Shown here piece after piece: positions 10,228-46,566 of a stretch of 64,000 nt of DNA. The stretch is taken from assembly GCF_004322855.1 (NCBI RefSeq), contig NZ_CP036402.1, forward strand, positions 3,844,001-3,908,000, given 5' to 3'. Numbering within the stretch: position 1 is the stretch's first letter; every line of letters begins with the position of its first letter. The notes under the pieces were generated by a model that was not told where the DNA came from, ran no database searches, and saw only the letters and a list, made by a program, of their open reading frames with translations. Made by a program: the position numbers and the translations under genes. This stretch comes from Egibacter rhizosphaerae (lineage in GTDB: Bacteria; Actinomycetota; Nitriliruptoria; Euzebyales; Egibacteraceae).

Positions 10228-10509
10228 CAGAAATCCCCGTCCTCGCACCACGTCCCCGAATCCGGGGGTTGCCGACCGGCACACGTGTCGCCGTACTCCT
10301 GGTACGGCGATGAGGACGGGGCATCGAGGTACAGCTGGTCACACGCCGTCCACTCGCCGTCCTCGCAGGCAGCGGCGAAGTCGTTCAACTCCTCGTCGTT
10401 GCCGAGGTGGTCGCTGGACCAGGGGATGTCCGCGTCGCCCTCGTCCTCGTCGTCGTGCCCTCGTTCCCCTCGTCTCCCCGGAAGCAGACATCGAATTCGG
10501 CCGGCTCCT
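10228..10509 (-). pseudogene. C-terminal remnant of a secreted/membrane actinobacterial protein
   Basis: The minus strand reads an open frame ending at 10228 with the protein-like segment NDEELNDFAAACEDGEW followed by TACDQLYLDAP, then YQEYGDTCAGR. This Cys-containing pattern resembles a C-terminal domain I associate with actinobacterial membrane or serine-protease-like proteins. An Asp/Glu-rich linker precedes it. No ATG, GTG or TTG starts the frame, and a stop closes it at 10510-10512, so this appears to be the 3' end of a gene that has lost its front. Confidence 0.5.
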
Positions 10510-10510
10510 T

Positions 10511-10537
10511 AAGGCGTGGCGGCCCCCGGCCGACGGT
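10511..10537 (+). promoter_or_regulatory. Sigma-28/WhiG-like promoter of fliC
   Basis: TAAG (10511-10514), 15 nt, then GCCGACGG (10530-10537). This is close to the flagellar sigma consensus TAAA-N15-GCCGATAA. The flagellin ATG is about 85 nt downstream. Confidence 0.68.
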
Positions 10538-10622
10538 TGTCTTGTCGATACGGAAGTCGACCGGTCCCGGCCAGAACGAGGGCCGGAGCGCCGCCAAGGG
10601 GACAACACGGAGGTAGACCCCG

Positions 10623-11801
10623 ATGCAAATCAATCAGAACATCATGGCGTTCAACGCTCAGCGGAACCTGAGCCAGACGCAGAACGACATGGCCGGCACC
10701 CTCGAGAAGCTCTCGAGCGGGTTCCGGATCAACCGTGCCGCCGACGACGCGGCGGGGCTCTCCATCAGCGAGCAGCTGCGCAGCGAGGTCGGCGGGCTGC
10801 AGCAGGCCCAGCGCAACTCGCAGGACGGCATCAGCGTCGTCCAGACCGCGGAGGGCGCGCTGAGCGAGGTGCACGACATGCTGCAGCGCATGCGTGACCT
10901 GTCGGTCCAGGCTGAGAACACCGCCACGACCGACACCGAGTCCCGCGACGCCATCCAGGCCGAGATCGACCAGCTCGCCGAGGAGATCGACCGGATCTCG
11001 GAGACCACCGCGTTCAGCGGCCAGAATCTGCTGGACGGGACGTTCGGTCTGCAAGACGAGGTGACCGGCACCAGCGACGCGATTGATGCGGACACCAATA
11101 TTGCCGGGGAGGACGGCGAAGTAACCCTCTCCCTGGGGGGCGAAGTGGAGGAGGCCGGCGTGACCTTCGACGTCCCCGAGGATGGGGATGGGAATCTCGA
11201 CACGGACGCCCTGGAAACTCTCGCGGGCAACATCGAAGATCAGTTGAACGGTGTCGGGGATAACGACGTGACCTTCTCGGCTGCCGCGTCAGTCAACAGT
11301 GACGGTGACGTGGTCGTGGACGTGACCGCGGAAGGGCTGGAAAGCGGACAGACCTTCGAGGTGGAGTTCGGCGGCTCGGTGGGGGACTTCGGGACAGTCA
11401 GGGGGGAGCAGGGCGAGGAGGCACTGCTCCAGGTCGGCGCCAACGAGGGTGAGAATCTCACGCTCAGCATCGGCCAGATGGACGCTTCCACGCTCGGCGT
11501 CGACGACCTGGATGTGGCCGAGAACGCCGGTGCGGCAATCGCCGCGCTGGATGACGCTATCGGCGACGTGTCCGCGCAGCGGTCCGAACTCGGTGCGCGC
11601 CAGAACCGTCTGGATCACACCATCGCGAACCTCTCGGTCACCACCGAGAACCTGCAGGCGTCCGAGTCGCGGATCCGCGACGCGGACATGGCCTCGGAGA
11701 TGGTGGACTTCACCCGTCACCAGGTCCTGCAGCAGTCGGGCACCGCGATGCTCGCGCAGGCCAACCAGGTGCCGCAGTCGGTCCTCTCGCTCCTGCAGTA
11801 A
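10623..11801 (+). CDS. fliC: Flagellin
   Basis: 392 aa. The conserved N-terminal D0/D1 region (QINQNIMAFNAQRNLSQ, LSSGFRINRAADDAAGLSIS) and C-terminal D1/D0 region (about 315-392, ending VPQSVLSLLQ) form the filament core. The middle (about 143-280) is a variable, surface-exposed, acidic domain. It is relatively richer in codons such as aat, att and gaa than its surroundings, which may reflect faster exchange or relaxed selection. It has a GGAGG site before the ATG, its own sigma-28-like promoter and a strong terminator, so it is probably monocistronic and highly expressed. Flagellin is exported by the flagellar secretion system, with FliS the usual chaperone. Confidence 0.95.
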   Translation: MQINQNIMAFNAQRNLSQTQNDMAGTLEKLSSGFRINRAADDAAGLSISEQLRSEVGGLQQAQRNSQDGISVVQTAEGALSEVHDMLQRMRDLSVQAENTATTDTESRDAIQAEIDQLAEEIDRISETTAFSGQNLLDGTFGLQDEVTGTSDAIDADTNIAGEDGEVTLSLGGEVEEAGVTFDVPEDGDGNLDTDALETLAGNIEDQLNGVGDNDVTFSAAASVNSDGDVVVDVTAEGLESGQTFEVEFGGSVGDFGTVRGEQGEEALLQVGANEGENLTLSIGQMDASTLGVDDLDVAENAGAAIAALDDAIGDVSAQRSELGARQNRLDHTIANLSVTTENLQASESRIRDADMASEMVDFTRHQVLQQSGTAMLAQANQVPQSVLSLLQ

Positions 11802-41549: not shown

Positions 41550-42643
41550 TGGCGCGGAAACGGGTCCTGGTCGTCGACGACTCGGTCGTCGTACGCAAGC
41601 TGGTCACCGAAGTGATCGCCGCTGACGACGGCCTGGAGGTGTGCGGCACGGCACCGAACGGTCGCATCGCGCTGGCGAAGGTCGACCAGCTCGCGCCCGA
41701 CCTGGTGACCCTCGACGTCGAGATGCCCGACATGAACGGCCTGGAGGCGCTCTCGGCGTTGCGTGAGTCGCATCCCGAGCTTCCGGTGGTGATGTTCTCG
41801 ACGCTCACGGATCGGGGCGCGCGGGTGACGCTCGACGCGCTCATGCGGGGAGCGAACGACTACGTCACCAAGCCCGCGAACGTCGGCGGGGTCAGCCAGG
41901 CGATCGCGGCGGTCAAGGCCGAGTTGATCCCCAAGGTCCGGGCCCTCACCGGGGCGGACGACGTCCGCCCCGCGCCACCGACACGTCTGAGCCCGGCGGC
42001 GCGGGCACGGCCGGCCGCGTCCCGGAGCGGCAGCGGACGGATCGACCTGATCGTCGTCGGTGTGTCGACGGGGGGTCCGAACGTGCTGGCCGAGTTCGTG
42101 CCCCACCTGCCCGGCGACCTGGGCGTCCCGATGGTGATCGTCCAGCACATGCCGCCGGTGTTCACCCAACTGCTCGCGCAGCGCCTCGACGCCCGCTCGC
42201 CCCTCACGGTGGCGGAGGGGAGCGACGGCGCGCCCGTGCAAGGCGGCCAGGTGTGGATCGCCCCGGGCGACCGTCACCTGCTCGTGCGCCGGGACGCCGG
42301 TGGGCTGCGGCTCGGCATCAACATCGGGCCGCCGGAGAACTCCTGCCGCCCGTCGGCAGACGTCCTGTTCCGCAGCGCCGTGGAGGCCTGTGACGGCCGG
42401 GTCCTCGGGCTCGTCCTGACGGGCATGGGACAGGACGGCCTGCGCGGATCGGAACGCATCGTCGAGGCCGGCGGCAGCGTCCTCGCGCAGGACAAGGCGT
42501 CGAGCGTGGTGTGGGGGATGCCGGGGGCGGTCACCCAGGCCGGGCTCGCCGAGGAGCAACTGCCAGTGACCGGACTCGTCGACTCCGTCGTGCGTCGGGT
42601 TCGCGCCGGTGCCGGTCGCGCGGCCGCCGAGGCGGCACGATGA
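41549..42643 (+). CDS. cheB: Chemotaxis methylesterase/deamidase CheB
   Basis: 364 aa. Receiver domain (VVDDSVVVRKL, LDVEMPDMNGLEAL, TKPAN) then a linker and the CheB methylesterase with catalytic Ser (GVSTGGPNVL), His (VQHMPPVF) and Asp (TGMGQDG). It demethylates receptors for adaptation. GGGGGAGG lies 6 nt before ATG 41549. Confidence 0.95.
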   Translation: MARKRVLVVDDSVVVRKLVTEVIAADDGLEVCGTAPNGRIALAKVDQLAPDLVTLDVEMPDMNGLEALSALRESHPELPVVMFSTLTDRGARVTLDALMRGANDYVTKPANVGGVSQAIAAVKAELIPKVRALTGADDVRPAPPTRLSPAARARPAASRSGSGRIDLIVVGVSTGGPNVLAEFVPHLPGDLGVPMVIVQHMPPVFTQLLAQRLDARSPLTVAEGSDGAPVQGGQVWIAPGDRHLLVRRDAGGLRLGINIGPPENSCRPSADVLFRSAVEACDGRVLGLVLTGMGQDGLRGSERIVEAGGSVLAQDKASSVVWGMPGAVTQAGLAEEQLPVTGLVDSVVRRVRAGAGRAAAEAAR

Positions 42644-43488
42644 GCCTCGCACCGGCTGACTTCGACTACGTACGCACACTGGTCCGCGACGAGGCCGCCA
42701 TCGTCGTCGAACCCGGCAAGAGCTACCTCGTGGAGTCCCGCCTCGCCCCGGTGGCCCGTCGACACGGCCTGCAGACGATCGACCGCCTCGTCCAGCAGCT
42801 GCGCCGCGGCTCTCCGCGCCTGCGCGACGAGGTCGTCGAGGCGATGACCACCAACGAGACGTCGTTCTTCCGCGACGTGCATCCGTTCACGAGCCTCGAG
42901 GAGCGCGTCATCCCCGAGCTCATGCAGCGTCGCGCGGCGCGCCGGCAGCTCGTGTTCTGGTCCGCGGCGTGCTCCAGCGGCCAGGAGCCCTACAGCGTGG
43001 CGATGCTGCTGCGCGAGAAGTTCCCGCAGCTCGCCAGCTGGAACGTGCGGATCGTGGCGAGCGACATCAGCGCGGAGATGCTCGGCCGCGCTGCCGCCGG
43101 GCGGTTCTCGCAGCTCGAGGTGAACCGGGGCCTGCCGGCGCGCTACCTGGCGAAGTACTTCCAGCGCGAGGGCGCGGAATGGCAGATCTCCGACGAGATC
43201 CGTCGCATGGTGGAGTTCCGCGCCGTCAACCTCATCCAACCCTGGCCGAGGATGCCGCCGGTGGACGTGCTGCTCCTTCGCAACGTCCTCATCTACTTCG
43301 ACCACGGGACCAAGCGGGAGATCCTCGCGCGTTGCCGGCAGACCCTGCAGCCCGACGGGTTCCTGTTCCTGGGCGCGCCCGAGACGACCCTCAACGTCGA
43401 CCCCGCCTTCGACCGGGTCCAGCACGGCCAGACGATCTGCTACCAGCTGAAGAGCGCCACCGGAACCGGACAGGGGTGCACGAAGTGA
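42640..43488 (+). CDS. cheR: Chemotaxis receptor methyltransferase CheR
   Basis: 282 aa. N-terminal helical domain (MTTNETSFFRD) and SAM-binding domain with SAACSSGQEPYSVAM, ASDIS and LLRNVLIYFD. It methylates receptor glutamates, opposing CheB. ATGA overlap with cheB; the cheX start overlaps its stop. Confidence 0.95.
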   Translation: MSLAPADFDYVRTLVRDEAAIVVEPGKSYLVESRLAPVARRHGLQTIDRLVQQLRRGSPRLRDEVVEAMTTNETSFFRDVHPFTSLEERVIPELMQRRAARRQLVFWSAACSSGQEPYSVAMLLREKFPQLASWNVRIVASDISAEMLGRAAAGRFSQLEVNRGLPARYLAKYFQREGAEWQISDEIRRMVEFRAVNLIQPWPRMPPVDVLLLRNVLIYFDHGTKREILARCRQTLQPDGFLFLGAPETTLNVDPAFDRVQHGQTICYQLKSATGTGQGCTK

Positions 43489-43933
43489 CAGTGACGGTAC
43501 TCGATCTACGCGAGATCATGCACGAGGTGTTCCAAGGGTCGCTGGGCCTCGGTCTCGAGGTCGCCCCTGACGCGAGCGAGCACTCCGCCTCGGCCCCTGT
43601 CGTGGCCGGTGGTGTCCACATCACCGGGGCCTGGCAGGCCGCGGTCGTCATCACGCTCGACCGCGCTCTCGCGCTGCAGGCCACGGGCCTCATGCTGCAG
43701 GAGCTGCCCGAGGACGTCACCGATGAGGACCTGCACGACGGGATCGGCGAGCTCACGAACGTGGTGGGGGGAACGTGAAGAGCCTGCTCGGCCCGGGGTG
43801 CGACCTGTCGCTGCCCACGGTCACCGAGGGGATCGGCTACCGGGTCACGCAGCCGGGCACCCACGAGCTCGAGCGCGTGTGCCTGACGGGAAGCGCCGGG
43901 CTGTGCGTCGTGAACGTCGCCGTCGCGGACTAG
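43485..43933 (+). CDS. cheX: CheX-like CheY-P phosphatase, interrupted by an apparent -1 frameshift
   Basis: From GTG 43485 the first frame gives 97 codons with the CheC/CheX active-site pattern E-x-x-N (GELTNVVGG), then stops at 43776-43778. The -1 frame from AAC 43772 continues NVKSLLGPGCDLSLPTVTEG and ends normally at 43931-43933. Joined, the protein is 149 aa, the expected CheX length. The junction is a run of six G (43766-43771) read as G GGG GGA, a possible slippery heptamer. Either the ribosome slips back one base, or one G is missing through mutation or sequencing error. Confidence 0.72.
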
Positions 43934-44045: not shown

Positions 44046-44408
44046 ATGAAGATTCTGATCGTCGACGACAGCAAGGCGATGCGCAAGATCGTGCAGCGCG
44101 CGCTGCAGTCGACCCAGGCTTACGGGGGCGCGGCCCTCGTCGAGGCCACGAACGGCCGCGAGGCGCTCGACGTCGTGGAGTCCGAGCAGCCGGACATCGT
44201 GCTCTCGGACTGGAACATGCCGGAGATGACCGGGATCGAACTGCTCGAGGTCCTCAAGGAGCGGGGCGCCGCCCCCAAGACGTTCGGGTTCGTCACGAGC
44301 GAGTCGACGCCGGAGATGTACGACCGGGCGATCAGCGCGGGAGCCGGCTTCCTCGTGAGCAAGCCCTTCACCGCCGAGGCGCTCGAGAGCGCACTCGCCG
44401 CCGCGTAG
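44046..44408 (+). CDS. CheY-like response regulator (second copy)
   Basis: 120 aa, single receiver: IVDDSKAMRK, phospho-Asp in LSDWNMPEMTG, Thr in FVTSEST and Lys in VSKPFT. GGAGG lies before ATG 44046. It differs from the cheA-linked CheY and is followed by a second CheC/CheX-like protein; the pair may be a phosphate sink or a separate output branch. Confidence 0.88.
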   Translation: MKILIVDDSKAMRKIVQRALQSTQAYGGAALVEATNGREALDVVESEQPDIVLSDWNMPEMTGIELLEVLKERGAAPKTFGFVTSESTPEMYDRAISAGAGFLVSKPFTAEALESALAAA

Positions 44409-44437: not shown

Positions 44438-44947
44438 ATGGCCATGCTCGCTCAGCGGGGCACCACGGTGCCCCTGCCACCGCGCGCCTCGGTGCGCGAT
44501 CTTCTAGGTGATCTGCTCGGCCAGCCCGTGCGGGTCGACGAGGGCGCGGCCTTCGAGCTGTCCGAGGTGCCGTCGTTGCTGGCGGCGTACCGGTTCGACC
44601 AGGGCGGGGCGGCGGCCGTCGCCGTGGCTTCGTTGCCCTTCGCGGCCGGCGCCGGCGCCGCGATCGGCATGGTGCCGGTCGCCGAGGCGCGTGAGGCCGC
44701 GCGGATCGCCTCCGCCGCCGAACTCGACGAGGAGTTGCACGAGTTCTTCCACGAGGTGGTCAACGTCCTCGCGAAGCTGCTCAACAGCCCCTCCACCCCG
44801 CACGTCGTGCTGCGCGAGCTGCTGCCCGTGCCCGGTGAGGTGCCCGGTGACATCGCTCAGGTCGTGCTGCACCCCGCCGGTCGGGTCGACTACCGCGTGA
44901 CCGTCGGCGACTACGGCACCGGGGCGTTGACCCTCGTCGCGCGCTGA
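44438..44947 (+). CDS. CheC/CheX-like protein (probable CheY-P phosphatase)
   Basis: About 169 aa from ATG 44438 (GTG 44429 and ATG 44444 are alternatives; none has a strong ribosome-binding site). The C-terminal half (ELHEFFHEVVNVLAKLLNSP) carries E-x-x-N followed by a Pro about 21 residues later, as in CheC/CheX active sites. The N-terminal half has no recognised domain. Coming after a second cheY, it probably dephosphorylates that regulator. This is pattern-based. Confidence 0.5.
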   Translation: MAMLAQRGTTVPLPPRASVRDLLGDLLGQPVRVDEGAAFELSEVPSLLAAYRFDQGGAAAVAVASLPFAAGAGAAIGMVPVAEAREAARIASAAELDEELHEFFHEVVNVLAKLLNSPSTPHVVLRELLPVPGEVPGDIAQVVLHPAGRVDYRVTVGDYGTGALTLVAR

Positions 44948-44998: not shown

Positions 44999-46566
44999 TC
45001 ACCTCGCGCGCGGCGACCCGGGGGGAGCAGCCGCGCCCCGCACGGGGCCGGCCGTCCGCACCGCCCGCGCGAGCAGCGCCAGGGAGACCGCGAGCCATCG
45101 GTTCGGTTCGTCGAGGCTGCCGCCGAGCAGTTGCTCGATGCGCTCGAGGCGCTGGTACACGGTCTGGCGTCGGACCCCCAGCCGCTGCGCGGTGGCCGTC
45201 TTGGAGCCGCGCGTCTCGACGTAGGCCTCCAGCGTCTCGAGGTCCCTCGAGCCACGCGCGGCGTCGTGGTCCAGCAGCGCGCCGATGCGCGCGTCGACGA
45301 AGTCCTCGAGGGCCGGGTCCTCGGCGAAGCGAACCAGCAACCGGACGAGCGCGGCGTCCTCGGCGAGCACGATCCGCTCGCCCAGCGACAGGTGGGCGGC
45401 CAAGCCGGCGATCTCCACGGCCTCGCCGAGGGTGGTGTCCGCGGCATCGAGATCACCCACGCCCGGGCCCACCGAGAGCGCGCGCATCAGGGGGTCCCCG
45501 TGCCGTCCCGTCGGGTCCGCACGCTCGGGCAACGCGGCGAGGAGGTCCTCGAGGCGTTTGCGCAATCGGTCCGGTGTCGGGTCGGTCACCCCGACGACTC
45601 CGCAGAGCAACTGGTCCACCGTGCCGGTCACGCTCCAGGGGAACGCCTCGCGAGCGAGGTCGCGGAGCGCTCGCTCGGCGGCCTCGGCGCGCTCGGGCGC
45701 GGTCACCACGAGCGCGATTCCAAAGTAGGCGCGCACCGGCCGGGTGGGTGCGCCGAGGAGCGAGAGCCGGGCGGCGGTCTCGCCCGCCCCACTCGCGAAG
45801 CCGCGGACGAGGTCGGCGAGTGCGGCGCGCGCCGCGTCGTTCCCGCCCATCGGTGCCTCGCCCGTGCGGGTCAGCGCGATGCCGAGCGCTGTCGCGCCAC
45901 GCTCCAGCAGGTCGGTCACCTCCGGAGTCGGCGGGCTGGCCACGGTCAGGCTGCCGACCGGTGTGCCCTGTACGAGCACCGCGCGCTCCGCACGGCCTCC
46001 CTGTGGTGCGTCGCTCGTGCCGGTCACGACGCGCCCGTCGACGCCGATGAACCACGCGTTCGTCTCCGCGAGGGCGGCCACTTCGCGCACGACCGCCGCG
46101 GGCCCCCGTCCGTTGAGGAGGACGTCGTCGAGTCGGGCCGCGTAGTGCTCGCGGCGGTGCAGCGAGGCGACGCGCCGGTCCACGATCCGCGCGTGCACGT
46201 CGCGGGTCACGTCGACGAACGGCACGACCCGGTGCAGCGCGACGACCACGAGCCCCCGGGCGTCGGCGACCTCGATCAGCTCGTCGGGGATGCGACGGAA
46301 CGTGCGTCCGAGCTCGATGCACAGCGCCACCCCGCCGTGGTCGACGATCTCGTGCGCGTAGCGGCGTAGGCCGGCCGCGTCCGACCCGCGCAGGCCGAGA
46401 CCCGTGGTGAGCAGGACCTCGCCCCCTGCAGCAGCGGACCGATGTCGGCGATCTCCGAGGTGTGGATCCATTCGACCGGCCCGGCGTCGGCCACGCGGCC
46501 CGCGACGACCTCGGGGGCGGAGCGGCGGATCGGGGGGCGAGCGAGGAACTCCTCGAGCGTGAGCAC
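44999..46566 (-). CDS. PucR-family transcriptional regulator, interrupted by an apparent -1 frameshift
   Basis: GTG 46566 starts a PucR N-terminal domain (MLTLEEFLARPPIRRSAPEV, then WIHTSEIADIGPLLQG). The -1 frame from 46423 carries the rest (GEVLLTTGLGLRG through a CdaR-type region to the C-terminal helix-turn-helix TATAQRLGVRRQTVYQRLERIEQLLG). The join restores 522 aa, normal for PucR. The shift falls in a run of five G on the minus strand (46422-46426). PucR proteins regulate purine, pyrimidine or nitrogen catabolism; here the divergent cytosine genes are the likely target. Confidence 0.75.

Follow-up and report, generated by a model that had tools for sequence, protein, structure and literature searches.

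In a survey of frame transitions across 1106 prokaryotic genomes, assignment to the programmed class needs a conserved site, and singleton transitions with homology support are treated as errors or indels (PMC3711429). A systematic study of slippery motifs in E. coli found no G_GG.G_GG.N motif among the efficient ones, and reported that initiation in the -1 frame is probably directed, at a low level, by G_GG.G when another G follows, which could serve as a Shine-Dalgarno sequence (PMC4066793). Homopolymer indel errors are described for long-read assemblies (e.g. PMC8812927). A literature search that combined CheX with programmed ribosomal frameshifting returned nothing relevant; a programmed slip in cheX would be, as far as we know, the first instance of recoding that controls a CheY-P phosphatase.

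The cheX gene considered here lies in a stretch of 64,000 nucleotides (the window, by which we mean the whole of the DNA analysed) from a genome of 71% GC. On the + strand, it stands between cheR (42640-43488, start approximate) and a gene for a cheY-type single-domain response regulator (44046-44408), in a cheB-cheR-cheX-cheY order that, together with a subsequent small conserved gene, is common to most relatives; the remaining che cluster genes in the window are intact. The 5' part of cheX (43485-43778, + strand) starts at a GTG (43485) directly behind cheR and, after 97 amino acids that end in GELTNVVGGT, meets a TGA (43776-43778) beginning four bases past a run of six Gs (43766-43771, + strand). 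In the 0 frame this run is read as G GGG GGA (heptamer 43766-43772). The 3' part (43772-43933, + strand) lies in the -1 frame, where AAC (43772) is followed by GTG, AAG, AGC and an open reading as far as a TAG (43931-43933); its translation, NVKSLLGPG at the outset, is NVKSLLGPGCDLSLPTVTEGIGYRVT..., and the reading after a one-base step back, again to the TAG, is NVKSLLGPGCDLSLPTV... A GTGA (43775-43778, + strand) provides a possible GTG start for 52 amino acids of the -1 frame and overlaps the 0-frame TGA stop. The break had been described earlier from the letters alone, and the sequence and coordinates given in that sequence-only reading for the 97-aa form, the six-G run and the TGA four bases on proved accurate.

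Both parts belong to a single CheX. The 97-aa form matches the Pfam CheX profile (PF13690) with 39.7 bits over positions 2-55 of 94, and the joined 149-aa form raises the score to 65.3 bits over positions 2-86 (curated cut-off 27), which bears out the earlier proposal that the -1 frame supplies the missing C-terminus; the 52-aa remainder alone gave no match in the Pfam search. The ExxN active-site motif is present in the 0 frame (E-L-T-N in GELTN) and aligns with GELAN or GEIAN of the orthologues, and the solved CheX chains 6vpw, 3iic, 3h2d, 1xko and 1squ match the joined protein across the junction. In the 3' part, GC content by codon position is 0.70/0.49/0.98 in the -1 frame, as in real genes of this genome, against 0.51/0.98/0.71 in the continued 0 frame. 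The frame relation of the two parts is thus beyond chance, given the third-position GC of 0.98 in the -1 segment and the collinear alignment of the proteins of six relatives with both parts. Mean identity to 20 orthologues is 37.8% for the 3' part and 33.9% for the 5' part, so that the 3' part is no more diverged than the 5' part. From its third-position GC and the lack of excess divergence it follows that the break is very recent, is absent from the real genome or is bridged in the cell. By homology, the gene is an ordinary cheX that encodes a CheX-family CheY-P phosphatase.

Orthologues were sought in three overlapping genome sets, none with a genome of the same genus: 199 relatives, 396 genomes of the phylum and 66 of the class. 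Besides the source genome, 22, 18 and 19 of these, respectively, contained a CheX match, corresponding to up to 25 distinct genomes. All the orthologues found have a single open frame with 0 internal stops, and the two-frame arrangement occurs in none of the up to 25 genomes with a match in these sets without same-genus genomes. At the site of the break, 20 orthologues typically read AAC ATG ACC GGN GGN AAC GTN AAG in one frame with no shift. At this codon-level reading the six-G tract is generally absent from them; one orthologue (L007) has ACC GGG GGG AAC, hence six Gs at the site, yet keeps a single frame. Among contigs of named species, a scan for CheX orthologues returned only one distant betaproteobacterial match, and a scan of plasmids returned none. 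The small gene that follows cheY (44438-44947, + strand), found in the same place in most relatives, has no Pfam match; an ExxN-like stretch within it (HEVVNVLAKLLN) shows weak alignment to the active-site helix of CheX, and the gene may possibly encode an undescribed, degenerate CheX/CheC-like protein.

Our results strongly suggest, with a probability that we put at roughly 0.93, that this is an ordinary cheX with one base missing from a G homopolymer, through assembly error or recent mutation and with no programmed mechanism. The frame would break in the middle of the signature helix of the CheX family through a one-base deficit in the G run. We read the break as an ordinary deletion because all orthologues have a single frame and because a similar break, also one G short, lies nearby. 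Specifically, 2.6 kb downstream in the same window, a gene for a PucR-type regulator (45032-46566, - strand) has its own -1 frame break near 46421, within the Pfam PucR match (residues 8-127, junction at 48), where a G is missing at a stretch of five Gs on the - strand (CTGCAGGGGGCGAG).

Such breaks are not confined to the window. A frame-aware HMM was trained on this genome and applied to a sample of 2.06 Mb, with candidates checked by blastp and Pfam; it replaced an audit of tblastn split hits with uncorrected composition, which was too noisy. Pfam domains are interrupted by 12 breaks in the first 1.26 Mb, that of cheX not counted, or about ten per Mb; they affect a Schlafen AlbA_2 protein, an MFS protein, two ABC ATPases (one with two breaks), a periplasmic binding protein, an alpha/beta hydrolase, the PucR-type regulator, an M16 peptidase, a sulfate permease, a zinc dehydrogenase and an alpha-mannosidase. 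Runs of five G or C are the sites of the -1 breaks in the M16 peptidase, an ABC ATPase and a hydrolase. Among -1 breaks with no start codon close by, 6 of 28 are at runs of at least five, against 8.7% expected (P = 0.03), a weak enrichment. Breaks of this kind being common in the genome, that of cheX needs no special cause. Two further genes carry apparent single-base breaks, a serpin-like gene by eye (L139:2555-3834, +1) and a FIST-domain-like gene by eye (L146:13815-15008, -1). In a comparison genome, a cation/proton antiporter-like gene (L082 of G032, 10444-11607) has two frame switches; such breaks are therefore not peculiar to the genome of the window.

The notion of an exceptionally error-rich assembly was dropped: under a strict penalty this genome shows 25 breaks in 2.06 Mb, a density not above that of two comparison genomes, which have 3 and 4 breaks in 0.28 Mb apiece. 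Counts of G/C run lengths, used as a test of homopolymer compression, were not decisive, for the comparison genomes likewise show a depletion of coding runs of at least seven. A frame break in a known essential gene, sought among the verified breaks as proof of sequencing error, was not found: a groEL-like fragment in L099 (G000:C1:880001-900000) is apparently a second, degraded copy in a genome that also has an intact groEL. The apparently degraded fragments lie at about 895589-896060 of C1 and the intact gene at C1:3018066-3019571; the same 20 kb stretch as the fragments contains an ABC ATPase gene whose frame breaks twice, in opposite directions.

As to the cause of the deficit in cheX, a consensus or assembly error in the G run is the explanation that we tentatively favour and consider probable, with some way to go to confidence. 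Less likely but still a serious possibility is a real mutation: the sequenced strain would have undergone a recent frameshift, or its cheX would be an early pseudogene, with CheX lost, for example, while the strain was passaged in the laboratory with no selection for chemotaxis. G homopolymers do mutate by replication slippage, cheX is otherwise intact and other genes of the genome, such as the groEL remnant, look degraded; against this, the other che genes in the window are intact, and without reads the pattern is indistinguishable from that of consensus errors. Unlike the break itself, the intact coding character of both parts and the single frame of the orthologues, the cause is something we infer, a consensus error being somewhat likelier than a real mutation. 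The sequence-only reading had named a G missing from the homopolymer, by mutation or sequencing, as the simpler alternative to a programmed slip: the single-frame orthologues and intact coding favour that alternative. Should the base be truly absent, the cell would make a 97-aa CheX fragment without the C-terminal third and would probably be a cheX mutant; if the sequence is in error, it would make the normal enzyme of about 149 amino acids.

All readings in which the break is functional fare far worse. One of them, itself improbable, is a lineage-specific CheX, made as a slipped full-length chain or as two chains with re-initiation from the GTGA, that would be confined to the genus and so invisible in the more distant relatives searched.

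Of the two explanations that the sequence-only reading put forward, one was a programmed -1 slip of the ribosome at G GGG GGA, which would yield a short and a full CheX and so set the lifetime of CheY-P. It has in its favour that the heptamer does conform to X XXY YYZ in the right frame, as claimed, with a stop immediately after, and that the 3' part has kept its full coding character. In-frame copies of the motif are, however, common in this genome, with 9 in 129,038 sampled codons, which extrapolates to several dozen or more genome-wide. The motif also belongs to a weak class, the related G_GG.G_GG.U having given the lowest value measured in E. coli, 0.018% without a stimulator (PMC4066793). 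A downstream stem-loop stimulator was not apparent, pseudoknot-free RNA folding giving z values of -0.35, -1.16 and -0.96 relative to shuffles, within the range of the shuffles. Upstream, a reading by eye showed, as a possible Shine-Dalgarno-like stimulator, no more than a GAG near 43750. Comparison with orthologues, which had been suggested as a check together with the proposal, gave one uninterrupted frame in all those found and the two-frame arrangement in none, an outcome that tells against a programmed slip on the proposal's own terms, and under the published rules for frame transitions the cheX case is a singleton (PMC3711429). We therefore regard a programmed slip as very unlikely.

Equally hard to credit is a split CheX, in which the TGA would end a first chain, the G run would act like a Shine-Dalgarno sequence for re-initiation at the GTG of the GTGA, and the two chains would form one enzyme. 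The GTGA overlap is exact, and the low-level -1-frame initiation probably directed by G_GG.G with a following G (PMC4066793) would suit such a scheme. No orthologue is split, however, and the overlap is probably a coincidence, since its GTG is the Val codon of an NVKS motif conserved in the orthologues. A functional split is unlikely, moreover, because the break comes right after the ExxN motif, inside the stretch in which the orthologues are most alike. Phase variation, with reversible changes in the length of the G tract switching cheX on and off, would account for a G homopolymer at the break but can practically be dismissed, as six Gs make a short tract for a contingency locus, G/C runs of exactly that length turn up about 532 times per Mb in this genome, and the tract is generally absent from the orthologues.

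An ordinary cheX lacking one G thus remains our reading of the locus, and it carries a caution: slippery-looking G runs are common at 71% GC, and little can be read into a frame that breaks at such a run unless conserved orthologues or reads back it up. Set beside the described systems, the joined product resembles the CheX family of CheY-P phosphatases (PF13690) over the CheX core, in its ExxN motif and in the adjoining cheY and cheR, but its frame is broken after GELTNVVGG, as is that of no other member found in this analysis. With programmed -1 frameshifting of the dnaX and IS types, the site shares an X XXY YYZ heptamer in the correct frame; unlike those systems, it comes without orthologue conservation or a significant stimulatory structure, and with a motif of a weak class. 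It also resembles the homopolymer indel errors of long-read assemblies (e.g. PMC8812927): here, likewise, an otherwise intact gene lacks one base at a G run, with a similar break nearby.
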